NCBI GenBank assembly: GCA_949317995.1
Contig: OX439046.1
Location: forward strand, 37,670,002 to 37,734,001
DNA length: 64,000 bases
Reading direction: 5' to 3'
Origin: Acholoe squamosa
Taxonomy: Eukaryota > Annelida > Polychaeta > Phyllodocida > Polynoidae
Shown here: one piece after another, positions 36,833-62,870 of the stretch
Position numbering within the stretch: position 1 is the stretch's first letter
Layout of the letters: each line of letters begins with the position of its first letter
Notes under the pieces: model-generated
The model's input: only the letters and a program-made list of their open reading frames with translations
What the model was told of the DNA's origin: nothing
Database searches by the model: none
Program-made: the position numbers and the translations under genes

Positions 36833-36838
36833 TTTATT
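36833..36838 (-). terminator. Candidate polyadenylation signal of the secreted-peptide gene
   Basis: Plus TTTATT is AATAAA on minus, about 790 bases after the stop codon at 37625. 36839-37624 would then be 3' UTR; no other gene is seen there. Confidence 0.35.
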
Positions 36839-37624
36839 CATTGATATTGCAGAGAACATGTACAATCCATTGTCAGCTACATTTGCTAGCACTGAAATTT
36901 CGTTTCAATCAGTAAATACACAAAACATCACATTTCAACATTGAAGCTTGAACCTGAGACTAACAAAACATGTCCACGATGTGTCCAAACCCAGATTATG
37001 TATGTTAGCATGGTGGTGCCTTGGGAATCACTGGGTGACCAATTATAGCTGAGGTGTGTACCAAGGGGAGCTCCACCGTGTAACGTCAACGTATGGTAAT
37101 CAGGTTTGACATAGCGGCCACAGGCAGGTTGGAATGGTAGTTATATCTATGCCAAAACTATAGGAGACTTAGGTAGTCATCTCCGGTAGGCCATATATCT
37201 AAGGGGAAAACTTGGGACCAGGACTCGGGTCAGCCCCACTTTTGCACAGGCTGAGATTCCTGTCTACTTTTAGAGCGCTTCCGGTGGCATCCCCGAGTGC
37301 GGTCAGGGGCTTTTTGGGGTCTACTTCCGGTACGACGTCCCGGTGCGACGTACATGTCGTTGAGACTACTAGATGGTTTTCCAGGGTGGTACTCAGGGGG
37401 AGCATTTGTTTGACGACCACACACACAGACCTAAGTCTGATAGCATGGCGTCAGGAGCATGTTAAGCAGGCAGGAGTGGTTGAGGTCCGGAGTAGGTCAG
37501 AGATGAGCAGCTCAGAGAGAGGGGAGCAGCAGGGGGACACCTACTGCTGGGCAACAGTGCGGTGTCCATCGGGTGCAGCCTCTGCCGGTAGAGGACAGCG
37601 TGCCCGCTGCCCCTGCCACCCCAC

Positions 37625-37806
37625 TCAGTGCGAGTTGCACACCCGGAAAGGGTCGCACACATGCGAATACTTGACGCAGAACATGCACATCATCTTACGG
37701 TATGCCGCCGCATCAGGACCTGCTTGACGCTTTGTGGGACCAAAGATGTCCTGCAGGTCCGGCTCCTCTTCAACAGGAGTGTACTCAATAATGTGGTACG
37801 GGGCCG
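37625..37806 (-). CDS. Terminal exon of a secreted cysteine-peptide precursor
   Basis: The exon starts after a strong 3' splice site on minus (CTCTGTTTGTTTCAG, ending 37807). It enters in phase 1 (needs one base from the previous exon), then reads 59 codons to TGA (37627-37625). Features in order: an acidic spacer (YTPVEEEPDLQD), a dibasic site in GPTKRQAG, then a 33-residue C-terminal peptide beginning with Gln (possible pyroglutamate) and carrying four cysteines in CX2CX6CX5C spacing (MCMFCVKYSHVCDPFRVC). It joins the signal-peptide exon 51259-51178 in phase, giving 83 residues. The layout fits a neuropeptide or hormone precursor processed at Lys-Arg. I do not recognise the family. An extra exon in the 13-kb intron cannot be excluded. 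Confidence 0.7.
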
Positions 37807-38560
37807 CTGAAACAAACAGAGCAGTGAGTGAGTACTTGTGTGTGAGTTAGTCAATGAGTCAGGCTGAAACAAACAGCAGCAAATGAGTACTTGTGTGTGA
37901 GTTAGTCAATGAGTCAGGCTGAAACAAACAGCAGCAAATGAGTACTTGTGTGTGAGTTAGTCAATGAGTCAGGCTGAAACAAACAGAGCAACGAGTGACT
38001 GAGTACTTGTGTGTGAGTTAGTCAATGAGTCAGGCTGAAACAAACAGAGCAGCGAGTGACTGAGTACTTTTGTGTGAGTTAGTCAATGAGTCAGGCTGAA
38101 ACAAACAGCAGCAAATGAGTACTTGTGTGTGAGTTAGTCAATGAGTCAGGCTGAAACAAACAGAGCAGCGAGTGACTGAGTACTTTTGTGTGAGTTAGTC
38201 AATGAGTCAGGCTGAAACAAACAGCAGCAAATGAGTACTTGTGTGTGAGTTAGTCAATGAGTCAGGCTGAAACAAACAGCAGCAAATGAGTACTTGTGTG
38301 TGAGTTAGTCAATGAGTCAGGCTGAAACAAACAGAGCAGCGAGTGACTGAGTACTTTTGTGTGAGTTAGTCAATGAGTCAGGCTGAAACAAACAGCAGCA
38401 AATGAGTACTTGTGTGTGAGTTAGTCAATGAGTCAGGCTGAAACAAACAGCAGCAAATAAGTACTTGTGTGTGAATTAGTCAATGAGTCAGGCTGAAACA
38501 AACAGAACAGTGAGTGAGTACTTGTGTGTGGAATAGTCAATGAGTCAGTCAGTCAAACAG
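37796..38560. repeat. 55-61 bp minisatellite abutting the exon, about 13 units
   Basis: Units contain GGCTGAAACAAACAG, TGAGTACTTGTGTGTGAGTT and AGTCAATGAGTCAGG. On minus every unit carries CTGTTTGTTTCAGC, the same pyrimidine tract and AG used by the adjacent exon. Short and long variants (CAGCAAATGAG versus AGCGAGTGACTGAG) alternate. Confidence 0.88.
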
Positions 38561-39429
38561 GCAGGCAGACAGATACATGGTGCTCTACCCTTTTGGAGAA
38601 TATTTTATACATGTAATTTGAATGAATATTTATTCTGTACATACGTGTAACATTAGAGACTGGTAATGCACAATCGGGTTTATTCGCTATATAAGTTAAA
38701 AAAAAAATAAATGTCTCTATCTGTATTTGATTGCATCATGTAGAAATGGTATTCAGTACCTCAATACACTTTTACTGACTCCCTTGCAATAGAAATCTAT
38801 CATCTGATAGGATCTGATCTGAGAGAATAGGGCCTGAATATAAGTGAATGAGGCATACAATGTAGAAAGGCGTTTAGATTATAAACTCAATTCTGAGAAC
38901 AATCTTACAACATTTAGTGACCGATCATAAAACTTTCCCAAACATGTAAGATGTGCTTGATGCAAGTTATAGATTACCAGCTGTTTTTGTCGACCTTAAA
39001 CTTCTCCTGGAGTAGTGGACTGGCCAAAATGAATAAAATAAATGCATAACGTTCTAATGGATCTTGAAGATCTTGAAGATTTGGGTTGCTAGGGGCCCCC
39101 AGTCTCCCCTATAGACTGCGGGAGTTTAGGGTGAAGCAATTGCTGATTTTGAAGAGACCCCCTTTCTCACCTCTACCCCTCTGGGCCTGCCTCTTGTATA
39201 AACAGTAGCTTAGGAGTCAGTTACAATATTTCCTTTTTAATGATTTACTAGCCTCTATAAGTGGCTGTCTGTGGACAGCCATTAATCACTCAATAAGCAG
39301 TTATGGAGTGAACAAATCATTTGACATATTTGCTGGTTTAAAGCATGGCGAATGGGGCTCACACCAAATTAGAGGTGTGCACATTGCCATAGATTTGATG
39401 TCAGCAGTTTTGTATGACAGTTCACCTAT
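38561..39429. other. Intronic non-coding stretch
   Basis: No gene seen. Within the proposed intron 2 of the minus-strand peptide gene. Confidence 0.5.
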
Positions 39430-39432
39430 TAA

Positions 39433-39800
39433 GGCCAAGAAAAATAAAAGGTGTGTTTCCAGTAACAAAGCTCAAAGAGCTAGGGTCGGTAGTCGGATTT
39501 CTTTTCTTTTTTTTTTTTTACATTTATATAGGAAATGTTAGGGCACATATCTGCATATCAATGGATGTATCAAATTTTTTTGATTCCATTGTAAAAGAAT
39601 GATGGGAAAATGACAACTGTGAGCGAGGAGAAGAACACGAAATGGATACAGGAAAAATCCTCAAAAGGTAATGAAAAATTTCTTTAAAATATGAAAAAAT
39701 GAGACAAAATTCTTCAAAATCACAAAAAAAGTTGTTTTTTTTGCCCCTCTTTTGCTAGGGTCGGTCGGGTTATTGGAAACAAACCTTTTTTTATTTGGCC
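39433..39800. mobile_element. PIF/Harbinger-like MITE, copy 1
   Basis: Inverted ends GGCCAAGAAAAATAAAAGG and its counterpart ending TATTTGGCC. Just inside each end are GTTTCC and GCTAGGGTCGG in opposite orientation. 3-bp target duplication TAA (39430-39432, 39801-39803). Family assignment is by TSD type only. Confidence 0.65.
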
Positions 39801-39803
39801 TAA

Positions 39804-40893
39804 GCTCTAAGCAGTTTCTGTAATTGATGATCAAGGGGAAAATGAGTCATTAGGTACATGACATATGCTGTCATACTATGGAAAGCTAAGAGGAAAGCCA
39901 TTGACAAGGGATGGAATACAGTCTTCTTTTACTATGGTAACTCCATGTTTTACCATTGAGTGATCTTAGTCTTAATTTGCCTATATAGAGACGGTACTCA
40001 GCCAAATGATTAATGTGTGTTTAGATACAACTCCCTTCAATGGGAATTATAATGGTTATAGTTTGTAAAGATATTCTTGATCAGGAAGAGGATTTGATTC
40101 ACTGATTCATTGGTTACATGTATGTAACCTGGCCAGCGAGAAGCAGCAGCATTGTGTATTGTTATCAATCTCAAAGTTTTCCCATTAATTATAGACCATG
40201 TGTGGACTATGTGTGGACTATCGATGTTAGGCCCTATTCCATTTCAACCATAATTCCAATTTTCAAATCATATAATCCAAGTCATCATAGATCTGGTTGA
40301 ATACCCTATTGCTTTACCACTTAGGGTAGATCACCCCTGACTCGACCACTAGGCATGTTGATAGACCTTAAGTCAACCACCCGATAATTACAGGTTATTT
40401 TTAAAATGTATGAGTAATACTTGGGGCATATGCAAGGTTTATTCATTTTAGCCAATGTAGTACAGCCAATTAATAATTCTATGTTTTTTTAAAGAAGTAA
40501 GTTTGGGGTGGTTGACATAAGCTACCAACATGCCTAGTGGTCGAGTTAGGGGTAACTTACCCTACTATGGTCTTATGGTCACCGCTTGGCCCTGTCCACA
40601 CTGATCTCAAAATTCACTCAAACTATATTGGTATTAAGTATTGTGTCAGGAATGCACTTATCTGCGAGTAAAGTACATTCACAACAAATCAACTTGACTC
40701 TTGACTACCACTAAAACAGGACCATATCTCACGACATACCCAGATCAGCCTAGGGAGTTTTCAAAAAGTTTGTGTGCATTTATTTCGAGAAAGTGTGCGT
40801 ATATAAACCCTTCATCTTAATATGAACCTCATGGGTGGAAGGAGTCTATTTCTGAGGAAAATTTGCTTACATATAATTTACAAATTTGCTTAT
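39804..40893. other. Intronic non-coding stretch
   Basis: No gene. Two similar statements of a CATGCCTAGTGGTCGAG(T) word in opposite orientation (about 40340 and 40530) suggest a further decayed inverted-repeat element of roughly 200 bp. Confidence 0.4.
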
Positions 40894-42657
40894 ATATATG
40901 GGTGGGGCTCCAGAAAATGTCCAATTTTGAGAAAAAATTATCAAATTTTTTAATTACCCTTAGACTTCTATAGTTTTACATGTCTGTGGAGGAGGTGATA
41001 AGCCATGAGAATGGTAAATATTGTGAAGTTGGGATTTTTCCATCATTTTCTATTTTTTAGCTCAAAATGCATATATTTTAAGCATTAAGAGGGGTGTTAC
41101 GTTCATCAGATTTGATTAAATGAGATAAAATTGTGGAAAAATGATTTTCAAACAATATACCATGATATATATTCACTGGAACCTGGTAGAGATGTATCTC
41201 TTCTATGCAGAGAATATCATATATAAATTTTTCCTTCGTTTCCACATATCTTGTGTCATGCTTAAAATATCAGGTAAATTGAGAAAATGATGGATTTGCT
41301 CTAAGTTCATTTAAAAATTCTTGTAAACAACAAAAAAAATATAAAATTGAACAATGTTCCACTAACTGACAATTGGAAATGATTGTATTCACTTTTATTA
41401 ATACCTAAAGATATTTCTTTGATCTACTTATGCATTATAAAGGATTTTATCTTTGATAAGTCATTAGCCTGAATCCGATGAACGTAACATTTTTGGGGAA
41501 AATCATGAAATATCTCCTTAAAGAATATATCTATCTGGAAAATTCATATCCTATGCTGATTAGGTTGATTTTCTCAGGCTTACTGGTTGTTTAAAATTTT
41601 CTTCATGGATGATTTATGCCATACATATGCTATCATCAGTTTATCCGATGAACGTAACAGTCTGATGAACGTAACACCAAAAATCTGATGAACGTAACAT
41701 AAATCCGATGAACGTAACATAAATCTGATGAACGTAACATTTATAATTGCATTCCTATTACAGCAAAACAATTATCTACATTGAAAAAATTCTTACACTA
41801 GCTGGTGCAGTTCACTACTTGGGTACCCTATTGATATTTGTTTTAACTATTATTGAAGAATTAGGCAAATTAGAGGTAAATCATCCATGTGAATCCGATG
41901 AACGTAACATAAATCTGATGAACGAAACATTTTCAATTTTCTGTCTTTTATCATACTTTGAAGTGGAATTTCCGGAATCAAATGGCAAGATCCTTTCCAG
42001 GCCCCCACCACACACAGTGTCAACTGAATTTCATCTTTATATGCCTTATATTTATATAATAAATTATTCCCCAAAGAAAATAGCCTTAAAAGGGTCATTT
42101 TTCTACCCCTCTTTGGGCCTTATTTATGGAGAGAAAACAGTAAAATATTCAGATTTTTGCATATCTGCTCCAATATGTGGGTGTCAGACTTCTACATACT
42201 GTCAAAAAACTACCTCAAACGCATTCTATTCATATAGATAACACATTTTTTAAATAAAAACATGATTTTATGAGAAAAACTATTTTTAAAGATTTTCATC
42301 AGATAATGAAAAAATTTGAAAATTTTCTTGAAAATACACGGTGATGTACAGAAGGGTCTCTAAAATATGTTGTATTAATTGCAAAATGGGTTAATACAAT
42401 GTGAATAGAGAAAAAAATTGAATGAAAATCATTTTTTCTCAGGGGACATGGATTTTTTGGTATTTTTCAAGCAAAATATGGGTAAATTCAGGAAATAACA
42501 GGAAAAATATAATTTATTCCTTAGTTATTACATAAGTACTCATTGAGATCTTTGTAACCATGCTGTTCATATCACCTGAAATGATCTTATTACAGAGTTA
42601 TTAAAGAAAACATGACAAATTTGCTTAATGGACATTTTCTGGAGCCCCACCCATATA

Positions 42658-42667
<10 letters not shown>
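40894..42667. mobile_element. Unclassified TIR element with GATGAACGTAAC repeats
   Basis: ATATGGGTGGGGCTCCAGAA (about 40899) and its exact complement (about 42645) form about 30-bp terminal inverted repeats set in TATATA sequence. The interior is AT-rich and holds about nine copies of TC(C/T)GATGAACGTAAC, clustered at 41644-41740, with singles near 41475, 41892 and 41914 and one inverted near 41097. One frame (41747-42241, 164 codons) is open but unrecognised. Confidence 0.65.

Positions 42668-42735
<68 letters not shown>
42652..42735. repeat. (TA)n microsatellite
   Basis: About 80 bp of TA with one ACAT interruption, at the right end of the TIR element. Confidence 0.9.
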
Positions 42736-42736
<1 letters not shown>

Positions 42737-45225
42737 TTCATTGAGGTCTCCTACATAAAACCCTCCTGCTATCAAAAGAAACAAAAAAAAACACGAGTGG
42801 TCTAGGCATGTTATAATGTTCTTTTACCTAGAATCTGTGTTCTAGAGATTGCTTTCTTCATAGAGCCTACCCATATGCCTTTTTCTAATATTTCTTTTTT
42901 GTAAAGTCAGGTAGTGACGTCTGTCACAAATTCTATAGGATGATGACATATGTACGGATGTACAACAGTGAGTATTCTATAGCAATGGCACATTTAAGTC
43001 ATAATAGAAGTGAATTAAAGAAGGACTTTCTGAAACTTTGTGTTGTGATAAGTTCATAGTTTCATTCATTCATTCATCTATTAATTCACGGGCCTTGGGT
43101 AAACATTACCCATTCTGACTGAAAATGTTGAATAAACCATCTATCAAATAAGATAACCAAAGTATAAAAACGTGCACGTTTTTGTATTGCTAAATAATTT
43201 CTTTTAAACTCGTTTAGATAAAACGTGCATGTTTTGCTTACAACTTAAAAAGTTTTGTCCGTGCATTTTGCTGTAAAATTATTTGTCAATACTATGAAAA
43301 CGATTTAGGCCATGCAGGTTAGCCTCAGTGCTCGCTTAGAAAATTAACAGATTCTTTCTCGTCAACTTTTGGCAAGACCCTCCAGGTGGCTTTCTGAAGG
43401 AGTAAGCGTCTTCCACTTTGTAAGTGAGCACTTGTAGTACTGCTGAGGATCTGATTCTGCTATATGTTTGAGTACCTTCTGACCCACACACTAGTCTAAT
43501 TTCTGACAGTTCTTTACACCTGCATAATGTACAAAAAGCCGCCTGCCGGATGTAGGAGATAACTAACCGTGCCCCTATTTCCGGCAGTGGCTAGTCGGGG
43601 GCGGGGTGAGGGAGGGAGGTGCGTGGGAGTGACTTGTTACAGACTAGTCAATTTACATTGCCTGTACCTAGTGTGTATGGTACAGTCGATAACAGTGTCC
43701 CATACTATCAGTGAGGGCTGGGAAAGTCACTGAGTTTGAGGCATAAGCATCCTAGTCTTGACCAAAAAGGTGGGCTGATATGAAAAATAATGCCTTATTT
43801 TGTTTGTCTGTACCTCTCATAGATTCATATACTCAACTGTATAATTATTGTAGCCTCAAAGGTGTCCCAGTTATCAAAATCCTGGATCCAAGTTGGCCAT
43901 CTTTGGACTGTATGGTGTTCTGTGGTGCATATTTGTTTGCATTTCTGACTACTTTGGGCAGATGGAGACACCTCATTCACACCAATAGTGACCTCTATGT
44001 ATGGGGGTTGAACTTGTTTGCCCACTGCTAACCACCCAATCACATGGTCAGTGAAGTGTGAAGGCAGTACTAGACCAGTCTGAGGTAGTACTACCTCCCC
44101 CTGCAGGGAAAGGGATAAGGCTAGCTGGATCTCAGCTCCACAGAGTGAAACCCCGACAAAGTGACAGAGGGTAGATTGTGACCAGGGAACATTTTACAAA
44201 TGGATAGGTAGCAGAGTTTCATTCAACTGATGGGCAACAATGTAAGTGAATATACAAAGTAAAGTGTCTATACTTGAACATAGGACATTACTTAAACCTC
44301 CAAGCTCCCCATACTGCCTAAAACGATGACTTGGTTTTTGACCCTCTTGGTTTGAGTAGGATCTGTTACCAGCCAAGTCATACCAACTAGACTTGGCTGG
44401 GCTGCTAGCTAGTTACAGACCTGAGAATCTCAAAGAGGGTTACTTGTCACCAGGTAAATGTGCCATGGGACCCTTACCTCATCCCCTACATCTTCAGCTA
44501 AGTGTTCACTGCAGCCTTCACCGCTATAGACTGACGATAGGGGACCATGTATACATGACTTCTACAGTGAGTAGATCTAAATATAGACATCTGTAGTTGT
44601 AAACAATTATGTGTATTGTATCGTATAAACTGGGGGAGGGAATCCTTCCAAAAAGGGGAAAATGGAAATGTACACGGAAATCCAGGTGTCATTAAGGTAA
44701 CAATACTCATCTAAGATTTTACCAATTCGTTGAGACAAGAACATTTGGCAATGTAAACGAACATTTCATAAAGGTACAATGCAAGGCTCATGCATCATCT
44801 TTAAAATGCGCTACAATTTCCCCTGAAAAACCCCTCCAAGGGAAAAGCTATAAAACACACTATGCTTGCCTGCTTTGAAGACATTGCCACAGGCCTACCC
44901 TGGACCTGATGGGAATAGGTGTTTTAGCATAAGGACCAAAGGAGCCCTATGACTGCACAAAATCCAACTATCGAGAATTTGCCCTTAGAAATCAAATTAG
45001 ATAGAGTGGTACCTTTTGATAGTGGCTCCTCTAGCACTATGCCCTCACATTAGACGTCATTCACTGTCCCATTTGCTAAGACCTATTGGTCATTCAGAAA
45101 ATGAAAAATTTTCAACATTCCCAATCGAGGAATTAGAGGGGACATGGGGACCCGCGCACTGTTTCTTCCAGTAGTTAATGAAAAACACTATGGATCCTAT
45201 TTTCATAATAGCGTATTTTGATAGC
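42736..45225. other. Intronic non-coding stretch
   Basis: No supported gene. A GC-rich spot (about 43540-43640) contains GGGGGCGGGGTGAGGG, a possible GC-box, without an adjacent exon. Confidence 0.45.
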
Positions 45226-45228
45226 CTT

Positions 45229-45262
<34 letters not shown>

Positions 45263-45300
45263 TAGTAATAGTAGTAGTAATAATAATAATAGTAATAGTT

Positions 45301-45353
<53 letters not shown>
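45226..45353. repeat. (AAT)n microsatellite, left of the Ngaro element
   Basis: A nearly continuous AAT repeat with a few GAT/AGT units, ending exactly where the Ngaro A1 repeat begins. The matching trinucleotide repeat resumes at 50012. Confidence 0.88.
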
Positions 45354-45357
<4 letters not shown>

Positions 45358-45540
45358 GTATCGAACAGTAGTCATACTCACTGTTCGGGGGTATTGGTAC
45401 TGTAGAGCCTCCCACCTGTGTTCCTACCAGGGTGACCCAGTTCTACCTGTCACCTCACTCTCCACTCACCTGCACAGACAGGCCCACACAGTCATTCAGT
45501 CAGCTCACTGGTGCAGAGACAGTTTAGTTCAGTTTTTTTT
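45354..45540 (+). repeat. Ngaro A1 repeat
   Basis: It begins AATGGTATCGAACAGTAG and ends near a CAGTTTAGTTCAG stretch. It matches A2 with few substitutions. Confidence 0.88.
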
Positions 45541-45545
45541 CTATC

Positions 45546-47695: not shown

Positions 47696-49240
47696 ATGAA
47701 CTTAGCAGGCTGGAGGATTATGCTGTCAGGGGGCCATAGTCAAGTGTACGGCAAGGGCAGCTGGAACCCTAACGCCCACTTCCTCCTAGATGGTATCTGT
47801 CATGGGTTTAAGCCAACGGACCCAGGCGTGCATATAGAAGGTTACTGGTGCAAAAACTATGACTCAGCCACAGTTACAGCCTACCAGGAAATTAGTGAGA
47901 TCATCTCAGAGGAGTTAGCATCGGGTAAGCTGACGGAAGTGAGTGTTCAGCCTCAGTGCATTCACGCTATGGGTATAGTTAAAAAACCCTCAGGTGGCAT
48001 CAGACCAATAACTGATGCGACATGAGTCAAACTTTCAAGTCATTTAGTTACAAATCGGTAGATACCGTATCAGACCATCTAAAGCCAGGCTCGTATATGG
48101 CAGTGACTGACTTTACAGCAGCTTACCGCTCAATCATGGTCCGGGAGTGCGACAGAGCTAGACAGGGTCTTTCTTGGGAGTCTAGGTTTATTCAGGACAA
48201 CTTCTTGTCATTCGGTACCCACATTGCACCCTACGTGTTCAACAGCATTACAGACTCTGTAGCGCGGTACCTTATGGCACACAGTATTTTCTGTGTCAAC
48301 TACCTAGATGACATGTTGGTTATGGCGGACAGCTTTGAAGCTTGTTGTGAAGCACAGCTCTTTCTCCACAAAACATTGCGCTCCTTAGGGTTCTACATTT
48401 CCTACAATAAAGTGCGCTCCCCCAGTCAGATTCAGACTTACCTGGGAGTGGAAATTGATTCAATAAAAATGCAGCTGAGACTACCTGCAGACAAATTGCG
48501 CAAACTTCAGATGGAGTTGGACTTTTTCCGTGGTCGTCGCAGGATAACGAAAAAGCAACTTCAAAAACTGTGCGGAGTTCTGGCAAACTGCACAACTTTG
48601 GTTCGGGGGGTCGCACTTTCTCCCATCGTGTGATCGCAATGTTGAGTTGTTTCACTCCAAGGAAAAGGTACATTACATTGTCAAAGTCATTTCACCTAGA
48701 TCTAGCCTGGTGGGGAGACTTCGCTGCCTGGTTCAACGGCACAGCGAAAATAATTCAGCCTCCTGTTAATACGTCTATGGTGTGCACGGATACATCTGGT
48801 ACTGGATTCGGGACGTACTCTGGCATGGATTGGTTGTGCAGTAGGTGGCAGGAGGATTTTGAGATGAAAGGAGACCACCACAACCACTGTGTCCCCCAAC
48901 CGGTCCAGGATGTACCCTGTAATATTAATGTTAGAGAACTGTACCCGATTCTTGAGGCCCTCACCAGATGCGGCCACATGTGGCTGGACCACTGGGTAGA
49001 ATGTGTTACGGACAATACGCAAGTGGTGGCGACTATAAACACCGGTAGGAGTGGAAACTCAGCTTCAATGCATCTCCTCCGCTCAATATTCTGGCTGACA
49101 GTGATGTTCCACTGCCACCTGGTGGGAGTGTATCTACCGGGCAAGGACAACCTTGTAGCGGATACTCCAGAGCTACCCTCATCAACGAGTTACCAGTATT
49201 TTTGTGTTGCAGAGGCCCATCAGCGGATTTGGGAATAGGA
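47696..49240 (+). pseudogene. pol: Ngaro reverse transcriptase and RNase H
   Basis: RT fingers (MGIVKKPSGGIRPITD), then after a stop at 48023, AVTDFTAAYRS (motif A) and the catalytic NYLDDMLVMAD (about 48300). Thumb to 48633. RNase H in another frame: VCTDTSGTGFG (Asp), NINVRELYPIL (Glu), CVTDNTQVV (Asp) and PGKDNLVAD. At least one stop and one frameshift. The RT type and the recombinase downstream agree with the DIRS group. Confidence 0.86.
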
Positions 49241-51177: not shown

Positions 51178-51259
51178 CCTTAGCTGCTGTCAGCATGGCG
51201 ATGGCTATGACTAGTAAGGTGAAGAGGATGAGTTTTGCGGATGTCATCTTCTGGGTAAC
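51178..51259 (-). CDS. Signal-peptide exon of the secreted cysteine-peptide gene
   Basis: An 82-bp exon on minus. The 3' splice site TCTCCTTATTGTTGCAG precedes base 51259. A 12-base 5' UTR (GTTACCCAGAAG) leads to ATG 51247-51245 with A at -3. Coding: 23 codons forming a classic signal peptide (MTSAKLILFTLLVIAIAMLT, then AAK), plus one base. The donor is AAGG|GTAGGT at 51177. It ends in phase 1, matching the terminal exon at 37806, which supplies the other two bases of an Ala codon. Predicted cleavage is just after the AAKA region. The hydrophobic core and both splice sites are clear. The only doubt is whether other exons lie in the 13.4-kb intron. Confidence 0.72.
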
Positions 51260-51890
51260 CTGCAACAATAAGGAGACCATTTCATAATAACTCTGTCTCA
51301 TTACAAGATAAAAAAAAACAATACCAATCGCTTGATATGAATTGCATACAGTTTTATCTAGGATAAAAAATAAAAAGAAGATCTTATAGAATAATGAAAT
51401 ACATAAAGTGGAGAGAGTTCAGGTTGTGTAGGCAGCCATCAAGCAGTTGCGGAACGCGCCTTGTTAAATCTGGTTTAGTGGAAGAATAGCAAGGTTTATT
51501 GATCGGTCATTGGAACCCCTTGAATTGCTTATAGGTGATGTGCTTCAAGCAGTCAGCAGAATGCCATGATTCAATACCTGAGTCTAGTGAATGAACGATG
51601 CTGTTGCAGCATATGGTGACTCAATGATCGTTAAAACATGTGTCTAAACATGAATATAAACTACGAGGTACGGAGGATGCTCTGGACAGAACGTCCTTCC
51701 TGTTGGACTGCTTAAACTTATTCATTTTATGATGGTCACCTGACGACCCCATATTATTTCTTAAAAGGGCTATCTCTAGTGCGTCGGTCAGGTGGTTTAT
51801 TTCTTTGGTAATCCGACCGATTCTTATATAGGAAATGTACAGAGAAATCGTCGGATTAACAAGAAATAAAAAAAACACCCGACCAACTCA
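51260..51890. other. Intron 1 non-coding stretch
   Basis: No gene or named repeat seen. Confidence 0.45.
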
Positions 51891-52196
51891 GTGGAACCAG
51901 CCCTTTAAAGTGTAGGTTGCACCTGAAAGTGGAACCAGCCCTTTAAAGTGTAGGTTAAACCTGAAAGTGGAACCAGCCCTTTAAAGTGTAGGTTAAACCT
52001 GAAAGTGGAACCAGCCCTTTAAAGTGTAGGTTAAACCTGAAAGTGGAACCAGCCCTTTAAAGTGTAGGTTAAACCTGAAAGTGGAACCAGCCCTTTAAAG
52101 TGTAGGTTGCACCTGAAAGTGGAACCAGCCCTTTAAAGTGTAGGTTGCACCTGAAAGTGGAACCATCCCTTTAAAGTGTAGGTTAAACCTGAAAGT
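51891..52196. repeat. 38-bp minisatellite, 8 units
   Basis: Units contain AGTGGAACCAGCCCTTTAAA and GTGTAGGTT(AA/GC)ACCTGA, with two interspersed variants. Confidence 0.9.
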
Positions 52197-52293
52197 TTTC
52201 TTTTGTTAAGATGCATGGATATTGTGTTACTATTCTTTTAATTTTTACTAATGGAGGGAGGTTATTTCGTCAAAATGAAGTATTGAATGCAGT

Positions 52294-53311
52294 ACCCATT
52301 CCAAAACATGGTACTCATCTTGAGAAACAAGAATATCACACTCGTTTTTCATTTTAAGTGCTTTAACCCCCTTCGTCACCCCCTCTGAAGATAAAAAGTT
52401 GGAAAATATTTTATTGATTCAATTTTAATTGATATTTCATTTCTCCAATCTTTTCCTGGCTTGAAACTTGCATAAACCCGTTTTGAGATGCAATACAAAA
52501 TTAAAATACAATAAATAGAGCTATTTTGACATTTGGCAAAAAAAAATGTGTTTCCAGTTACATGAATTGAAATGCTAGGGTCGGTAGGTCGGATTTTTTT
52601 TTGTGCTATTCAGGTACTGGGTGGGGAGAGGAGTCTTCTCCTATATAGGCATATCATATATCAAAAGAAACATAAATCAAAGGCGAATCTGAAAGGATAT
52701 ATGGCCATTATAGTCAGACAATATATAAGGGAGTGGTAATTATTTATCAACAGAGGGGAGGGCTGAGGGGGCATAAAAATTTTGGAGGGCAAAATAAAAA
52801 ATGTTCGCGCCTCTGCACGAAAACCCACACCTGATATAATAACATGGCCTAAGCCAAATAAATAGTGAAAAATATGTCTGTTTCCTGTCCAGACGTCCGG
52901 TGGATTTTTTTGTATGAATGGGAAATTGTTTCCCTGAGTTGTTTTTTTTTTTCGTCCAACAGCATATATGAATCTAGGTTTCCAATCACTAAATCTTAGA
53001 ACATAATGGCAAATTAATGTTGTCTCTGTTTACTATGTTCATGACAAAAACACTGGCATATTGGCTTAATCAGTGGATAGAGATCTTTCTGAAAAGTGTC
53101 TGCCGGGTAACTGGAAACAAACCTTTTTTTTTTTTGGCCTTTACGAAAAATCCAAGATGGCTGCCATCAGTCATAGATGTCCTCAATTATGCCTTTCCTT
53201 ACCTGAACATCACATAAACCATATTGGGATGCAAAATATGAATGAAGTACACTTTATAGACACATTTTTGACTGTCTGAAAAGTTCAAGATGGCTGCCAT
53301 AGGCCATAGAT
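52294..53311 (+). repeat. Interspersed repeat, plus copy, split by a MITE
   Basis: 52294-52534 and 53140-53311 together match the reverse complement of 56818-57212 (shared words such as GGTGACGAAGGGGGTTA in complement, ATGCAATACAAA, and CATATTGGGATGCAAAATA). The 605-bp interruption is a MITE with target duplication. Confidence 0.75.
52535..53139. mobile_element. PIF/Harbinger-like MITE, copy 2, with matching empty site
   Basis: The left end GGCAAAAAAAAATGTGTTTCC region and right end GGAAACAAACC...TTTTGGCC are inverted. TTT lies on both sides. The uninterrupted copy at 56818-57212 supplies the empty target. An internal GGCCTAAGCCAAATAAA (near 52845) suggests a nested end. Confidence 0.7.
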
Positions 53312-55138
53312 CTCCCCACAAAGGCCTTTTCCTTAGGTGAAACATACCGTAAATGCTTGTTCAAGCAGAGAAGAGAGGTCTCCAATGAGTATATATACTT
53401 CAGTGTAGTGCAGGGTCAGGACCCCCAATCTACTTCTTAACTCTCTTTAAGGGAGCTAGAATGACTGCAGGTCCTCTTTAAGTGCAGGGCAAAACAACTA
53501 GTAGGCCATCATAAGCCATAAATGTTGTCATAAAAAGGTATCTGTTTACATCATAGGAAACATGCAAGAAACCACTAAGAGACTAGAATGTTTTGAGTGG
53601 TAAGCTTTAAATCAAAGGCACCTGGCTATTCAGCACCCATTTTTTCTTGAAGTATTCCACTAATAGAACAGTTGTAGCAACCATGCTGTTTCTGAAATAT
53701 GTTTAACAAAGTACCCTATGGTAGGGCTTTTCAAACCAGTGGGGTTTGAAACATCAGGCTCACCTCAATTATAGTCAAATAAAAGGAATAATCAGATTTC
53801 AACTCATGCTTTTAGAGGGTGAAGGAGAATGTGCATAAAGCCATCCCATATGACCTGCAAGGGGACTGTATAGCACTCTGAAGGTTCAACATGTTAGAAA
53901 TTCATAAATCAATGATACTAGAACAATCAGAAACATCCTATCTTTTCCCCTATGTGCTATCCTACTAGCCACATCCCACACACACCTTTTCATTTTGTTG
54001 GGATTGATAGCTTTTTATTCCTCACATAAACCATGAAGCTATTGTGGGCAGAGAATAGACCTGTAACAAAAGTCCCAAGTGCACCTCAGCACACCAGGGA
54101 CTAGCTGGACGGTTGTTCACACATGTAAATTTTATGTATACTATATATATGCTTTTCCTTGGCTCAGCCAATTTACTATAGATTGAGCTGAGCAAATCAC
54201 TGATTACTCTTGCATGAACCCAAGGTTGGATGTCCTATACTTTGTGAATAGCCACCCTGGTAGATAACCCAAGAAAATGAGAGCCCCAGCTAAATGTTCC
54301 AGGAATGGTCAGCAGCCATAGGATATGGAGTAAATTCTGTTAATGTTCTGAATTCATCACAGAAAAGTGAAATTTGCTCATTTCCAGCCAGGTGCATTGT
54401 GTAATACACCTTCAGGCATTACCATTGGTGAATTTAACAATGTTCAATGTACATCATTCTCACTAAAGTCGGAACTGTATCAATGTCACTACTTTACAAT
54501 TGAGATTTTATTCCTCTCATAGCTCTGTGTGCTATGATAGCCAGTGTCATGATAGTCACTATGTAAAAATTTCTCCATTGTCAGCATAATACATACATTA
54601 AATTCATTAGAAATTTCACCATATAGTAATCTCTATATAATTATCGTCTCCACTTATTAACCATCCATATTTCACCTTTCTGTACAATTAGGCCCCCATT
54701 AAAACAACTATATGTGACATGTACTGGGAAAGGGGAGCTTATTGCACCCTGCTCTAAGACCCTTTTTTGCAGATCGTGTCACATATGCAGACCATACTAC
54801 TAATAGTCCAGAATACATAAAGAGTATATGAGGAATAACCATTAGGTATGATATCCATTATACAGGATAACTATTATGTATGATGACCATCATGCAGGGC
54901 TATCCCATAGTGAGGCCCATAGACCAGTTCATTCCAGACCTAGCAAGCCCATGGGACAGGATACTCATATCCCCATTAGTAAAACTAGTAGCAGCCCTGA
55001 CCGTCGTCCAGCCCAGACGTAGGTTATGCAGCGCCACCTTCTGGTATACAATATCATAGCCATGCAGCATTATGTGCTGTACTCAATACATTGACTACTA
55101 TACAGGCATGCCAAGCCTGGAACCATAGATTTCCTATG
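53312..55138. other. Intron 1 non-coding stretch
   Basis: No gene or clear repeat boundaries. Low-complexity content is modest. Confidence 0.45.
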
Positions 55139-55442
55139 CACTGAAAACCTGGAAGATCCAAAACTAGTCAGCGATGACCACTTTAGGTCCTCAAGTTGAC
55201 GATACCTAAAACTACAACTTTAGGTAGTCAAAATGACGACTTTAGGTCATCATCCTGACGACCCCAGTCATCAGTATGACAACTCTGTACTGTCAGTATT
55301 GTCATACTGGTGACTCAGGTCATCAGGATGACGACCTAAAGTCATCCTTTTGACTTACTTAAGCTGTAGTTTTAGGTATCGTCAACTGGAGGACCTAAAG
55401 TCGTCACCGCTGACTAGTTTCGGATCTTTCAGGTTTTCAGTG
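55139..55442. mobile_element. 304-bp near-perfect palindrome (fold-back element)
   Basis: It begins CACTGAAAACCTGGAAGATC and ends GATCTTTCAGGTTTTCAGTG. The arms pair through about 140 bp each, with a short centre (about 55284-55300). Within each arm the word GACGAC(T)TTAGGTCATC recurs in both orientations. Confidence 0.88.
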
Positions 55443-56817
55443 TGGTAATACAGGAGTGCATGATGGAGATCATCATCACAGGACGGAAGGACTTATTTAT
55501 TATATTGTAAATTGAGTATGGAATCTCTCACAATGGAAATGTGTATCATCTCATTAGCCAAACAAGAAGTATTGTTCATGATGAAACACCAATTGTCAAG
55601 TCTACGCAATAAAGATATATAAATTGTATCTTCGGGTTCTTGAGTTATCTCTTCATCAATGTCATCGAGAATCATAGATATTAAAATGAATCTCTCAACC
55701 CGACAGCATTCAGAAGTACAGAAATATTGATCTGCCAGTTTGCATTTCACCTTTGAGAAAACGCAAGTGAAGACCCAAATGTTCTTTTGAAAGTCACACT
55801 AAGGATACAAACAGAAATTGGCATTAATCCTATCTCTATGTTTCTATGCTCCCACATAATGGGTATATTGACATAGAGGTGCTGTATTCACCAAGCCCTT
55901 AAATTTTAAACAAGGTGAATGCTATAGTGGACACGTCATTCATAATCTGGCTGTCAGCACCAATCCGCCTTGCTCTCTCTGTCATTCATAATCTGATATG
56001 TTATCCCTACATCTGTAAATTGTGTGATTTTTACTAGAAAGTAAAATATACTGATGCTTGGCCTAAGGGAGGAATAGTTCAAGCAGAGAACTAGCTCAAT
56101 TAGCTTGGGATTATTCTTCCCTATAATGGTGGGGGGACATTCTGGCTGATGATGACAGTGTTGAATTTTCCAGGGAAATGAAGTTGTTTAAAATGGCTCG
56201 AAATATTGACAATATTTTGGCGACCAGTATGCCTCTGAACATATTCGGGACCTTCAATCATTTGGTGTCTTAGAGGTCGATTAGGGGTGTTGGCCATGCA
56301 CTTCAATAGAATCTATGCTCATTCATGTCCTTTGCACTTGAATAAACAATAATGGCAAGAAGCTTTGATAAGTATGCTTGTGTAGTGGTTTGGTTTCTTG
56401 TTATGAGGAATCAACACAAGAAGAGAAGCAGATTCCAGTAGGCAACTGAGTCTTTACAAAGAAAGCATACGGCCCTTAGGCTCACATGGTTACGGTTACA
56501 TGGGTATCTATCATTATTGAGCAGCGGTCTCTACTACTACTTGAGATTGGTTGGAACCTTTGTCCTTATATAGGGGAAAAGCCCGCAACACTCAGACCCA
56601 TCACGTGACGTGTGAGTGGGAGGCCCCCTGGTGTGATGCGCATGAACCCAAATGCAGGTGCTGCCACCTACATCCAAGAGCCTGCATCTCACCCAGAGAC
56701 CCATAGGTCTGAGCTCCATGGGCATACAAACCTAGAGTGTAATAACCGTATACTGATTTACCATACCTCTACACTTGATAAGGGTATGTTCCATATAAGG
56801 CAATACCTTTGTGAGGA
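55443..56817. other. Intron 1 non-coding stretch
   Basis: No gene. Short ORFs here lack motifs. Confidence 0.45.
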
Positions 56818-57212
56818 CATCTATGGCCAATGGCGGCCACCTTGAATTTTGCAGACAGTCAAAAATATGTCCATAGATCGAATGTATTTCATTCATATTT
56901 TGCATCCCAATATGGTTTATGTGAAGTTCAGGTAAGGAAAGGCATATTTATGGATATCTTATATTTTTCACAAATGTCAAAATAGCTCTATTTATTGTAT
57001 TTTATTTTTGTATTGCATCTCAAAGTGCTTTTATGCAAGTTTCAAGCCAGGAAAAGAATGGAGAAATGAAATATCAATTAAAATTGAATTAATTACATAT
57101 TTTCCAACTTTTTACCTTCAGAGGGGGTGACGAAGGGGGTTAGAGTGCTCAAAACCAAAAACAAGAGTGATATTCTTGTTTCCCATGATAAGTACCATGT
57201 TTTGGGATGGGT
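56818..57212 (-). repeat. Interspersed repeat, minus copy (empty-site copy)
   Basis: Reverse complement of 52294-53311 without the 605-bp MITE. Confidence 0.75.
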
Positions 57213-57891
57213 TCCCAAAAGGTTTGTGCTAACCCCCCCCCCCCCATTACTAAGCTGCATGATAATTCCATGACGGCGTGTACATGTAACATCTAACTTC
57301 ATAGATCTATTGCGATACCTAACTATCTCATACAGTCATATCTTGTATTGATTTCACATAACCATATATGTAATACTCCTACAACATGTAATATAATCCT
57401 GTTATTTGGACAATTACACTCACACAATCCTCTCATTACACTGGTAAATAGCTGATAGAAAGTAGGCTAATACCATGAGCTGATATTTTGTTCAGAGCTC
57501 ACTGATAGTCCCCTGCTGATTGCGAGCCATAGTGCACTTATCATAGTTTATATTATTCCCCGAATCGGCTGGAAATCTTTCTGAAAGCAATATTGTTATG
57601 AATTCATTATTTTTGAGTGGAGAGGTAAATTTCGGGGTAAATACGCGTATTACATATCGATGGTCAATGCATAGCCCTGTAGGCGCAGATTTCAATTATT
57701 ATAATACAATAGCTGTTTTTGAATTTTGATTTTATTAACCAGAACCAATGTCTTTCGGTGGTTTGATTTTTTTTCAGGAGGACTCAGTAGGGGTGTCTAT
57801 TTTACATCGTGTTATTTGTATACAGAGGTTGAACAACACTATGTTGTATGTTGTTATAAAACAAAGCAATATCCTATTATGTTATAGATCA
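57213..57891. other. Non-coding stretch
   Basis: It contains a C-run (about 57232-57245). No gene seen. Confidence 0.45.
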
Positions 57892-57975
57892 CAGATTAGG
57901 CAGCTGCAGAATCATGCACAGGAGCTGCAGCACTGTGGCCACCTCCAGCGCAACCTGAATCCATCATCGTGCTAA
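57892..57975 (+). CDS. Possible terminal exon, unknown gene
   Basis: An AG after TATAGATCACAG opens 27 codons with a GC-rich coding-like composition (RQLQNHAQELQHCGHLQRN) to a TAA at 57973-57975. The Gln/Leu pattern suggests a helix. The pyrimidine tract is weak and no upstream exon was identified, so it could be chance. Confidence 0.25.
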   Translation, partial: QIRQLQNHAQELQHCGHLQRNLNPSSC

Positions 57976-58535
57976 ATTGGCAAAATGTACCTTTGTTCAG
58001 CACGGTTCATAATGTGTTATTATGGTAGCCCTGAGGAAATTAGTGTCAAGACTATTATTGGTGTGTGATGCTTGTGTACAGTTGTTTTGTAATAGTATAT
58101 GAGAAAGGTGCACATACGCCTGGGACACACATTGTGCGTTATGTACATCGTGCATCATAATAATGGATGTTCCCATAGTATGTCATATGACATCACCCTA
58201 TCAGAGGCTTATTGTGATGTATCATTCAGTCGGCAGCTATTATTATCCCCATGGTTCAATAGGGTGGGAACAGGGCAGGGTATTTTAGGGAACTAAAGAG
58301 TCTCCAAGATGAGTGTTCATTACTTACCCAAGGCCAGTCTGATATTATATACGGCTAATGGATACGGGGTAGAGCCCTACTATGGAGCACCATGATGTCA
58401 AGGAGGTATCTGCACACTGACAGAGGTCATGGTCCCGGGGTGGAGGCGGGGCGATATACTAACTGTGACTGGGTGTGATGGAGTGTGGTGATAGGAAAAC
58501 CCCTGCTCTGTATGTTTTCTCTTCTATTAGCTCAT
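57976..58535. other. Non-coding stretch
   Basis: No gene seen. Confidence 0.45.
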
Positions 58536-58945
58536 GGGCTGAGACCAAGATGTCCATGTTAGTAGTCGGGCTTCCCTAGCCCACTTAAAAGGGTCTAATT
58601 CTCATCTTTCCTATCCCCTCAGGATGTGTGTGGTGCACATATGCGTGGGCACTGACACATTCCTTTGTGAAATTGTGTAATGTTCTCGCCATGAATATGA
58701 CCTTAGCTGTCGAAATGGCGTTAAACATCTATTACTCACTCACTCACTCACTCCATGTTAGTAGTACATGGAAATAGACCAGTGCCACAGGCTGAGACCA
58801 AGAAGACGGTGTAAGTAGTGCATGGAAATAGATCCGTGTCACAGGCTGTAAATAGTGCATGGAAATTGTCTTGTGTCACAGGCTGAGACCAAGATGACTG
58901 TGAAAGTAGTGCATGGAAATTGTATTGTGTTACATGCTGATATCC
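58536..58945. repeat. About 50-56 bp minisatellite, 4-5 units, split by a SINE
   Basis: Units contain CAGGCTGAGACCAAGATG and TAGTGCATGGAAAT. The first unit is cut by the SINE at about 58567. Confidence 0.7.
58567..58752 (+). mobile_element. SINE-like retroposon, copy 4
   Basis: Plus-oriented copy with a TCAC tail and a target duplication CCATGTTAGTAGT (right copy 58753-58765; left copy ending about 58566). Inserted in a minisatellite unit. Confidence 0.86.
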
Positions 58946-59143
58946 AATGATGTATTCCGAGGTAGCAGGTTGTCCCATGGGCGCGGCCATTGCTGGAGCT
59001 TGTTACCAGCAAGTTCTACTATCAGATGGGTACCAGTTGGCCCCCGAGAGGGCCGCAGTGAATAGTTGAGATCATCTCATTGGCTAATAATTTATCCTGC
59101 TAGGTCCGTATACATACCCATAAATTCTCTTGTATTAGCCACA

Positions 59144-59148
<5 letters not shown>

Positions 59149-59218
<70 letters not shown>

Positions 59219-59225
59219 TATACAC
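59149..59225. repeat. (TA)n microsatellite
   Basis: TA repeat with CACATATATA blocks at its right edge. Confidence 0.9.
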
Positions 59226-59237
59226 ATATATATGTAC

Positions 59238-59692
59238 ATAAGCCACATCACGATTTTTGGGACATTCTTTAAGTGACAAGAAGCCCCTGACTCACATATA
59301 AGGCGCCCAGAATAGAGACAGGTCCGTATCAGGGGCGTAGGAAAAGGGGGGGGGGCAGGGGGGCCTGAATATGTCTGGGCCCCCCAAAAAAAATTGTAAA
59401 GCCTCATCATAAAATTTACAAGATCACCACTCATGTCAGCATTGGATAAAGATAAGCCATCAAGGAATACTCTTTTATATAAATCCCATACAACCATGCA
59501 TCAACACTAGCCCATTCAAGCCGATAATTCACGGTGGCTGGGGTGGAGGCCCCTGCTGCCCTCCCCCCAATGATGATTTGCTTCCTACGCCTCTGCGTAT
59601 ACATACCATAAGCCACAACATGATTTTAGGGACATTCTTTAGGTGAGAAGAACCCCCTGACTCACGTATAAGGCACCCAGAGTAGTGACAGT
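59238..59692. repeat. Direct repeat pair around a MITE
   Basis: ATAAGCCACATCACGATTTT to GCGCCCAGAATAG (59238-59318) recurs at about 59609-59690 with scattered changes. The MITE lies between the two copies. Confidence 0.65.
59332..59597. mobile_element. hAT-like MITE, same family, copy 4
   Basis: The left end CAGGGGCGTAGGAAAAGG and right end CTTCCTACGCCTCTG are inverted. 5-bp duplication CGTAT on both sides. Confidence 0.82.
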
Positions 59693-59710
59693 TATTGGTT
59701 ACCTTTGCAG

Positions 59711-59782
59711 CCCGAACAAGGCGGACAGGGAGCAGATGCCCAAAGACACCAGGTCAGTGTTGCAGAATTTCATTCACGCTTA
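59711..59782 (+). CDS. Possible short exon, unknown gene
   Basis: A 3' splice site (GGTTACCTTTGCAG) precedes a coding-like stretch (frame 2: NKADREQMPKDTR). It either meets a GTCAGT donor at 59753 (42-bp exon) or reads on to TAA at about 59781. No flanking exon identified. Confidence 0.3.
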
Positions 59783-61499
59783 AACAAATTAGCTTTTAAG
59801 CTGAATAACGCCATGTTTCAGGTCAACTGACTAGCTACCTTTTATTTTCTAAAATCCTGAGAAATTTCTTTTTTTAAGGTGATTTATTCATCTGCAATTC
59901 GCGGTAGTGACTCATGAGCAACTATCAAAAAGGATTAGTAGGAAATTTTTCAGTACATTTGCAGAAAGAAAGGAACTAACTAGCCAACAGCACGAAAGAC
60001 TTCTTAAAATTTTTTTTTGGTTTTGCCTGAATGAGGACAGTGTACAATTTATAGATGTGTAAAATCTGATTACTATCTAACACAATAGGCGAGGAGTCAC
60101 ATGGGTTGCCGTATATTCTTGATAAGGTGTAGTGAAATCATCAAAGGGGATCAATATTTAATTTAAAGGGTTCTGATGGTGGAGCAAAGAGTGTGTTCAC
60201 CAACATTTAGAGGTGTGTAGCATAATGGGAGGTTTCCCTAACCTACTGAGAGTAGGATTTAATTGGTGTCATTTGGTTTTAGCCTCCCACGTGAAGTGGA
60301 AGTGGTGAGGTAAATATGCTATCCACGGTAACAAGATAGACCCTGGTGGTCCTAAGCTTAGGGCTGGTACCCAGCAAGATTTATCTTTAAACTTAGTCTA
60401 TACAACATTCCATCGTAGTTCAGTCATAAATAGCTCTGAACGGTTGTGCCTAGATTTAGTATGCTTCCGTGACATAAATGGTTTTAAGGAATAGTGTGGT
60501 ATACATGCACACCGTCTATGAGAATACTTGAACTATATTAAACTCGTAAATAGTGTGTGCATATTTTCCAAGCTTACAAAGCAAGTGGGTTAAATATTGT
60601 TCATTTTAGTATAGGGCTACTGCAACATCATCAAAATTGGTTGAAGTTAAGAGATTATTTCTGTATATAAACTTATTATGTTTGTAAACAGTGAAGCGGT
60701 GTCTTTCATGCTAATATGGTATATTTGAACTGCTCACCGAATACTTCTTATAGAGCAAAATATTGATGGCTTTATCTTAAAATCAATCTATCATCGCCGT
60801 CCGCAAACTATGTGAGTATGTTTGGATTTAGTTTTCTTTGAAAAATACCAAAGTACATGTACATATGAAGTCTCCACATGCGTGGGTTGGCAGGCATCCA
60901 GGAGGGAATGAATGAAGTACTGCCTCAACCTTTCCTCAATGACATCTCCACCCACCCGCCACCCACCTATAGAGGACATGTGAGTTCACACACCTTCAGC
61001 TGCTCCATTACTTATTGCAGTTTTTATAAAGCCCATAAGACCAGCCACGTGCACCTCGAGGGGTCATTTATTATCAGGAGGGGTCAAATTTTCTACGCTT
61101 CATCCCATATTGATAACAAATGACCATGCACTCCCTAAGATGGCCCTATAGATTTGCCATTAAAATCTCCAGATATATTTTTCAGCTTATCCAAAATGTC
61201 AGGGGTGGATCAGCTGAAAGGTGTGTATGTGCATGGGGAGCTGTGCAAGTTTTGGTTATTTTTCCATTGTAGTTTTTATATGCATTTGTAATCATAATTG
61301 TATATCCACGGCTCCTCCACCGCTGCGCAATCTCAGGATAAAGGTTATATGCGCCTCCTTTGCCTTTGGATAACTCCTGGTTGAGCACAAGGTATTCCAC
61401 TATCAATCAGGCAGAAACTGGTCGTGTTTGTTGTATTTCAGCCAATGTTGTCCCAATTGTAATTCATTGCAATTCTTTGATAGGGCATTTGAAATAGAC
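59783..61499. other. Mostly non-coding
   Basis: One minus-strand coding-like stretch (about 60965-60860, reading VIEERLRQYFIHSLLDAC) follows a CTCTATAG border. It is too short and isolated to call. Confidence 0.35.
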
Positions 61500-61892
61500 T
61501 TACCATAAAACTCTGCCCATAAGCCACAGCCCCAACTTTGGGAAAAGCTATAAGCCGCACCTAGGGCTTGAAAAATTCAATATTAGTACTGTTCTATAGG
61601 TTTGACCCGGATTGCATTATTAACCAATCAGATAATTCCCTGTATTCACTGCAGACAATTTTGGGTACATTATGTAACACCTAGTACATATCATGCTGGT
61701 TCTTATCAGTGCTTATCCCGCCAGGTGCCAGATCAAGCAATGGCCGTCCTACTAGGCCTCCATACTGAGCCCTATAATGTCAAACCCCCTGGAATAAGCC
61801 CCTCCTTGAGTTCAGGGCAATGTTATAAGCCGCTTCAAGGGTCTGCCAAGGTCTATAAACCTTGGCTTATATGCGGGGTTTTACGATATTTC
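61500..61892. mobile_element. Decayed MITE with CATAAAACTCTGCC/TATAAGCC ends
   Basis: The left CCATAAAACTCTGCCCATAA and right GGCTTATATGCGGGGTTTTA are imperfect inverted ends. Internal TATAAGCCGCACC words repeat. Related words occur near 59240, 62450 and 63810. Confidence 0.5.
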
Positions 61893-62600
61893 AATATATT
61901 CCACAGACGTTTATTTCAATTTGGATTTTGCCTGTAATAGATAAAATGAGGCCCTATTTCTTATTCCAATCGGGAAATAATCTTTAATCTCCACCTTTCG
62001 ATCTTTAGTTGTTTTTTCACTTAAATTCTCTAGCCGTACGTACCTGCCGACAGTAATGTGGGGCTATGAGTGAGTAACAGATAAAGCTGCCCCAAATAGT
62101 ACAAATAGGCCTAGTTGGAATCTGTTCGTTTGGTTAATCATTAAACCTATCAAGCTTAACCCGAATAAATATTTTCAGGTGACCCGGCTACACCTACAGT
62201 TTTTAGGCGTTGCATTTAGGAATACATGTTATATTCCCACCCATTGGAAATATGCCTGTGCCTATGTACAGTATGGCTGGTTCATTGGCATCCAATTTCT
62301 GGGATTATATGAACTACTAAAACCATAACATTCAATAGTCTACCAACAGATATATCAGTGTGTTGAACACGTTTGAGTAGCAGTAGGGGGAAAAAAGTAG
62401 AGGAGGAAAAAGAAATAGAACTGTGCCACTTTGATAAAGTATCACGATGCCCCGCTTATAAGGCCCACATCCTACACACCTCCAAATTAACTTTTCTTGC
62501 TTCTATGCGGGGGCTATGGAGGCACTCCAGGGGCCAATCTTTGGGATTAACCCGAAAGGTATTACGGTATATTTACTGTTAGAAACTACAAAAGAAGTGA
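61893..62600. other. Intron 1 non-coding stretch
   Basis: It contains a further fragment of the TATAAGCC repeat family near 62450. No gene. Confidence 0.45.
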
Positions 62601-62624
62601 TAAAAAGGTGGTTGTGACCCTTAC

Positions 62625-62815
62625 CTGTGGTGGCTACGTGCACGTGGGGTGGTGGTTCTGCTGTGGGTGTGAGTTAGGTCCCTGTACCAGAATCATAAGG
62701 TCCTGCTGCAGCACGCCGTACCACTCTCCTCGGCACCCTTGCTGCGCACGCCGCTTTATGGCGTTGTGCGCGTCCCTTCACGACTCCGGCAGCTACCTAC
62801 GGTCAGCGTCCGGAG
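62625..62815 (-). other. Probable first (5' UTR) exon of the secreted-peptide gene
   Basis: CpG-rich on both strands. It ends at an excellent donor on minus, CCACAG|GTAAGG (exon end 62625). No long ORF from an ATG. A 20-codon upstream ORF starting MILVQGPNSH ends before the donor, in CACGTAG. Position, strand and donor fit a non-coding first exon spliced to 51259. The 5' end is not determined. It could belong to a different minus-strand gene. Confidence 0.5.
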
Positions 62816-62839
62816 TAACATCTCATTAACATACACCCA

Positions 62840-62870
62840 CGCACCGTGACGTCACCATAACGTCACAGAC
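62840..62870 (-). promoter_or_regulatory. CRE-containing promoter
   Basis: Perfect palindromic TGACGTCA (62847-62854) and TAACGTCA (62858-62865) lie about 30-50 bp upstream of the CpG-rich exon. cAMP-response elements at this spacing are common in neuropeptide genes; assignment here is inference. Confidence 0.5.

Follow-up and report, generated by a model that had tools for sequence, protein, structure and literature searches.

The question raised by this locus is whether its minus strand encodes a secreted four-cysteine peptide and, if so, to which family such a peptide belongs and what it may do. The stretch analysed, hereafter the window, comprises 64,000 nucleotides of the annelid Acholoe squamosa (C12:37670002-37734001, where C12 is contig OX439046.1) from an assembly of 1.48 Gb in 63 contigs, and the preliminary description of it had proposed a three-exon gene made of a non-coding first exon, a signal-peptide exon and a terminal peptide exon. 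That observation is real as to both coding exons and is, by the sequence tests given below, a well-supported gene prediction. The predicted peptide is a member of a small, divergent three-gene family seen in one annelid genome, and we somewhat favour reading its product as a prohormone that would give a non-amidated, two-disulfide hormone or neuropeptide.

Coding exons 2 and 3 were found letter for letter as proposed, with splice sites, phase and stop all present, and joined in phase 1 they give an 83-residue precursor, MTSAK...CNSH. Exon 2 (51259-51178, minus strand, as are all features of the gene) opens at CAG|GTTACC and ends in a phase-1 donor, AAGG|GTAGGT; after a 12-nt leader its ATG stands at 51247, and it encodes the predicted signal peptide MTSAKLILFTLLVIAIAMLTAAK, which was judged by hydropathy only (3.2 for the hydrophobic core, as a 12-residue mean). 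Exon 3 (36833-37806), the terminal coding exon, opens in phase 1 at CAG|CGGCCC (37806) and carries the stop TGA at 37627-37625, a 3' untranslated region (UTR) and an AATAAA at 36838-36833; given the usual distance between such a signal and the end of a transcript, the true 3' end probably lies a little beyond 36833. In this exon an acidic spacer precedes a Lys-Arg convertase site (37732-37727), which is followed by the predicted mature peptide QAGPDAAAYRKMMCMFCVKYSHVCDPFRVCNSH (37628-37726). This peptide has 33 residues, an N-terminal Gln, the pattern CX2CX6CX5C spanning residues 14-30 and no Gly before the stop, i.e., no amidation signal, and by inspection it is slightly basic. The predicted signal peptide and the cleavage motif can be read directly from the sequence. 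An AlphaFold2 model from the single sequence had a mean predicted local distance difference test score (pLDDT) of 84.9, with a helix at 5-19 and strands at 22-24 and 30-32. The G+C content at codon positions 1, 2 and 3 is 54, 42 and 64%. When the precursor was searched against the whole genome at E <= 0.001, only its own two exons were returned (6 candidates scored), and BLASTN within the window found each coding exon once.

The strength of the splice sites was estimated with an approximate position weight matrix and ranked over both strands of the window: among 7,729 GT sites the donors take ranks 8 (62625, that of the claimed exon 1) and 111, and among 7,988 AG sites the acceptors take ranks 20 and 110. 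A scan for signal exons at fixed thresholds gave one candidate per strand, namely exon 2 for the minus strand and, for the plus strand, a stretch of poly-Leu at 13871; at the strictest thresholds exon 2 is the sole signal exon in the window, and the poly-Leu stretch joins it at looser ones. No candidate was seen in a Markov-1 null of 60 sequences of 64 kb. A scan for terminal exons, defined by an acceptor, an open frame, a dibasic site and a four-Cys tail, found one in the window (exon 3), versus a mean of 0.05 and a maximum of 1 per null sequence, and the exact CX2CX6CX5C spacing occurs once in the window.

The family was reached through weak matches. When the exon 3 product was searched against the genome at E <= 10, the window gene and two weak matches came back. 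The terminal exon of what we call sister gene 1 lies at C12:15019973 on the minus strand (matched region 15019876-15019962, ..RSVRDGEDFSTYMCVYCMKNPSICDPYTACTS.., E 1.0); it has the acceptor TTTTTTCCAG in phase 1, a stop followed by AATAAA, and the core C-VY-C-MKNPSI-C-DPYTA-C, in which the CX2CX6CX5C spacing is exact. Its predicted signal exon, MGLKRFLAVFCLLAVVLSSTNNVVQ, lies 5.2 kb upstream on the same strand (C12:15025292-15025217) and ends in a phase-1 donor; at loose thresholds over 70 kb there were five minus-strand rows and one plus-strand row for such an exon, and the row chosen is the only one in phase 1. A back-search with the sister 1 peptide recovered three loci: the window gene (E 0.13), one on C10 (E 0.68) and one at C12:57328806-57328895 (E 2.7). 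This third locus is the matched region (..RTLRSDDAESRAYCRYCISYPHLCDPVKACYP.., minus strand) of the terminal exon of sister gene 2, which lies at about C12:57328921, with a phase-1 acceptor before it, AATAAA after the stop and the core C-RY-C-ISYPHL-C-DPVKA-C; this gene is absent from the matches of the window peptide itself in the genome at E <= 10. Its predicted signal exon, MSAYFRLSLVLLFFVVMATLSTY, is on the same strand 7.3 kb upstream (C12:57336276-57336207) and also has a phase-1 donor; four rows were obtained over 10 kb at loose thresholds, all in phase 1, and the chosen one has the best donor.

Since two further genes share the exon plan and the Cys spacing, the window peptide is, at the level of gene prediction, a divergent family member, and the secreted-peptide gene plan proposed for the window (signal exon, peptide exon, matching phase 1, convertase site) is strengthened. 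The family core can be written C-x-[YF]-C-x6-C-D-P-x3-C. Only the four Cys and the Asp-Pro after the third Cys are invariant in the mature part of all three members, and over the full precursors Met1 and one Arg are additionally invariant. The cleavage motif is Lys-Arg in the window gene and RxxR in the sister genes (RSVR and RTLR), and, at spacings of about 20 Mb along C12, the three genes form no tandem cluster. In a control scan whose thresholds were fixed at the level of the weakest member after all three had been seen, neither strand of 15 control loci (150 kb) held a signal exon; the window held 1, which is exon 2, and 80 kb surrounding the sister genes held 2, each on the correct strand and in phase 1. 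The CX2CX6CX5C pattern was absent from control loci totalling 210 kb, one locus among them being half N. Two other loci were tried as paralogues and rejected: L020 on C5 (E 5.25) has an internal stop and a CX2CX6C that is then broken, and it lacks a signal exon within 20 kb upstream, while the Cys spacing of L033 on C10 (E 0.68) differs. The cores were also shuffled, and 2, 0 and 42 of 20,000 shuffles reached the observed non-Cys score; as similarity was how the members had been picked in the first place, this test is biased, and it is not relied on.

As for the first exon, the preliminary description had placed a CpG-rich exon bearing a cAMP response element (CRE) at 62625-62870. The CpG richness (G+C 0.59 and observed/expected CpG 0.94 over 62870-62625), an excellent donor (CACAG|GTAAGG at 62625/62624) and the full palindromic CRE consensus TGACGTCA (62847-62854) are all present; the 5' end of this claimed non-coding exon is uncertain. 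As the CRE stands so close to that end, it may belong to the promoter as readily as to the exon. Copies of TGACGTCA in the window number three (4530, 4589 and 62847). A promoter plus first exon, 11.4 kb from exon 2, fits the CpG richness, the donor and the CRE, so that the candidate exon 1 is plausible. By reading, there are 12 bases between the apparent start of the signal exon and the ATG in the window gene, 1 in sister 1 and 8 in sister 2; these short leaders suggest that each of the three genes has a separate upstream UTR exon, which indirectly favours a three-exon plan.

Comparison with known families left the identity of the peptide unmatched, the general kind, a prohormone-type disulfide peptide, being a known one. 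Pfam gave no family for the window precursor at E <= 10, no PDB sequence matched, and neither Foldseek nor VIA-align (one chain compared) gave a match. In the protein database, which is poor in such animals, no candidate shared three words with the window precursor, and the alignment of the three precursors brought up 18 candidates, none at E <= 10, so that no other species was found there. These blank protein searches say little, because a single-ORF (open reading frame) BIR-domain protein in the same window (138 residues, 12026-12442, minus strand, E 7e-17) found only six database proteins, with 57-69% identity over 38-99%, and these came from short ENA contigs. For the peptide strings, the matches listed from searchable paper text were only papers unrelated by title. 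For the Cys pattern, the full CX2CX6CX5C appeared, among the matches listed, only in papers on fungal zinc clusters, as judged by title and the start of the abstract, and the remaining matches listed were mostly on plant LBD proteins, which hold only CX2CX6C. Fungal Zn(II)2Cys6 clusters are six-Cys DNA-binding domains; they share the spacing of their first four Cys with our peptide, which is instead a predicted secreted peptide with four Cys. The earlier statement that no family with this pattern is known stands for Pfam, the PDB, the protein database and printed text as searched, and the peptide might still belong to a published annelid family such as Platynereis MNC, with which it was compared by name only. 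Among candidate identities that were dropped, the decapod peptide Hyrg has no convertase sites, and a cone-snail-like reading went together with a mollusc host. A decapod host was likewise dropped, on the mitochondrial gene order given below and on the missing crustacean neurohormone family. PF01147 (crustacean neurohormone) and PF14830 (mollusc haemocyanin) had no match in the genome, which agrees with an annelid host, although this absence is weak since 14 control genomes likewise had none.

If the prohormone reading is right, the signal peptide would take the precursor into the secretory pathway, where a convertase or furin-type enzyme would cut after Lys-Arg in the window gene and after RxxR in the sister genes; the exposed N-terminal Gln could then cyclise to pyroglutamate, the four Cys would pair into two disulfides about a helix-plus-hairpin core, and what leaves the cell would be a small peptide hormone or neuropeptide that is not amidated. 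The exons, the phase, the convertase motif and three genes with one plan are present in the letters, and from them we infer splicing, processing, disulfides, expression, a hormone role and a receptor. Several points weigh against a hormone: the divergence is fast, with so little of the mature part kept, two of the three members have RxxR instead of a dibasic site, and there is no amidation. These points speak for the main rival, which is that the peptide is secreted without being a hormone, as an exocrine, mucus or antimicrobial disulfide peptide of skin, gut or coelomocytes with furin-type cleavage, and the slightly basic charge of the window peptide agrees with it. Genes for effector peptides are commonly found in tandem clusters, which the wide spacing of the three genes on C12 does not resemble, and the window member has the classical acidic spacer, Lys-Arg and N-terminal Gln, so that we regard this rival as rather unlikely. 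When no splice site is required, a dibasic site followed by a Cys-rich tail is not rare: the six frames of the window hold seven such segments ending at a stop, all with four Cys although tails with 4, 6 or 8 were allowed. These loose tails would favour mere chance, i.e., unrelated open frames carrying splice-like sites, as would the facts that the gene is read from sequence only and that the family matches are weak by E-value; the null tests, the codon-position bias and two independent loci that repeat the whole plan, including phase and Cys spacing, make this explanation hardly credible.

A different kind of alternative concerns the name of the peptide. CNMamide is a two-Cys ring with an amidated CNM end, calcitonin-type peptides are C-terminally amidated, and the allatostatin-C ring is C-x-F-[NK]-x-[IV]-x-C. 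An alternative terminal exon of a CNMamide, calcitonin-B or allatostatin-C gene could be imagined, as the tail CDPFRVCN of the window peptide resembles the CNMamide ring, with a small predicted disulfide ring near the C terminus and C..F[KR][IV]CN in one member. The window peptide, however, ends in CNSH and a stop, has four Cys against two and lacks an amidation Gly, and the likeness is lost in the sisters (CDPYTACT and CDPVKACY); a motif scan found no allatostatin-C ring in the window, nor is there another motif of the CNMamide kind in it. PMC4888303 describes decapod B-calcitonins with two bridges, as well as alternative exons of CNMamide that are poorly conserved. These calcitonins share the four Cys with our peptide; theirs lie at the N terminus, whereas here the first Cys is at residue 14 of 33 and there is no amide. 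All three identities were rejected for the number or position of the Cys, the missing amide or the absent motif, and we give an exon of this origin almost no weight. It is a tentative possibility, doubtful on present evidence, that the peptide is an ortholog of a named annelid or lophotrochozoan family such as Platynereis MNC, SLL, SHM, RNT or CLCCY. PMC3890597 lists annelid-only proneuropeptide families of Platynereis dumerilii, including MNC, LEQ and QERAS, and Cys-bearing orphan precursors, SLL, SHM and RNT among them; as described there, these come from an annelid and have a signal peptide, a basic cleavage site, Cys and in some cases an N-terminal Gln, as does the window precursor, and the MMC of the latter resembles the motif that the name MNC suggests, which is a guess. 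Compared by name only, no member here has the letters MNC, and the CC-based names (CLCCY, CCWa, CCRFa, CCAa) do not suit these peptides, none of which has two Cys side by side.

The 3' end of intron 2 has a feature that the preliminary description did not mention, a 55-bp minisatellite of 13 units (37806-38548, minus strand, 37806 being the first exon base). The array makes up the last ~740 bases of the intron, in head-to-tail units that are mostly 55-61 bases long; every unit ends in TTTCAG, the last of which is the acceptor of exon 3. Since the array stops exactly at the exon, the functional acceptor would be the thirteenth copy. By eye, each unit has a candidate branch point, a pyrimidine tract and TTTCAG, with CTAAC in 11 of the 13 and variants in the first two, and splicing to any of the 12 upstream units would yield a product of 24 residues, with a stop right after the signal peptide. 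Nothing similar was seen by eye in the 200 bases before each sister acceptor, and within the 347,697 bases compared, a total in which some loci overlap one another, the 55-bp unit was found solely at this locus (in the window and in L001, L018 and L032, which overlap it). The array has likely arisen as the 3' end of the intron itself expanded neutrally as far as the constrained exon without entering it. A bolder proposal joins a new annelid hormone family to gating, in which the 13 acceptors would compete, only the last giving hormone, and repeat number or splice choice would set the output; this seems to us highly improbable. The minisatellite nevertheless offers a natural test case for how the spliceosome chooses among 13 similar acceptors, 12 of which would be non-productive. 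Two 38-bp minisatellites are also present, one with at least 17 copies at 36000-36650, cut off at 36000 where the scan began, beyond the 3' end of the gene, and one of 8 copies at 51890-52196, upstream of exon 2.

Elsewhere in the window, an ORF with a NADAR domain (16341-16871, Pfam E 4e-13) is flanked by what by eye looks like the first frame of a long interspersed nuclear element (14970-16348) and by a frame with a DUF459 match below the cut-off (17037-17783); downstream of this group, at 20339-23380, there are ORFs that by eye are endonuclease/reverse-transcriptase-like, and the region is possibly a retrotransposon carrying a NADAR domain. A run of ORFs at 25085-27490 recalls, by eye, the protein-primed DNA polymerase of a large DNA transposon; two ORFs tested from it had no Pfam match. 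A reverse-transcriptase ORF (48022-48633, E 2e-14) is followed by an RNase-H-like ORF, by eye of DIRS type (47696-49238). Two tRNA-Ser(CGA)-like genes on the minus strand (2228-2299 and 2720-2791) lie inside an apparently repeated stretch and are perhaps tRNA-derived short interspersed elements. Outside the window, contig C63 (15,641 bp) is the mitochondrial genome, its genes named by eye from translations with table 5; on one strand the circular order of those named is COX1, COX3, ND6, CYTB, ATP6, ND5, ND4L, ND4, a gap, ND1, ND3 and ND2, the gap being where the rRNA genes would lie, and we take this order to be the annelid ground pattern. Between ND4 and ND1, at L003 4437-4860, there is a long simple repeat of AT type, judged from its Tyr-Met translation in several frames.

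The approach used here, in which weak similarity is combined with exon phase and linkage to a signal exon, can pick a divergent family of small peptides from one genome, and the exact peptide sequences are given for synthesis and testing. If the genes are expressed as predicted, they would represent an annelid family of secreted peptides with two disulfides that has so far found no match, in which the exon plan would have been kept in three genes while the peptide diverged almost down to its Cys.

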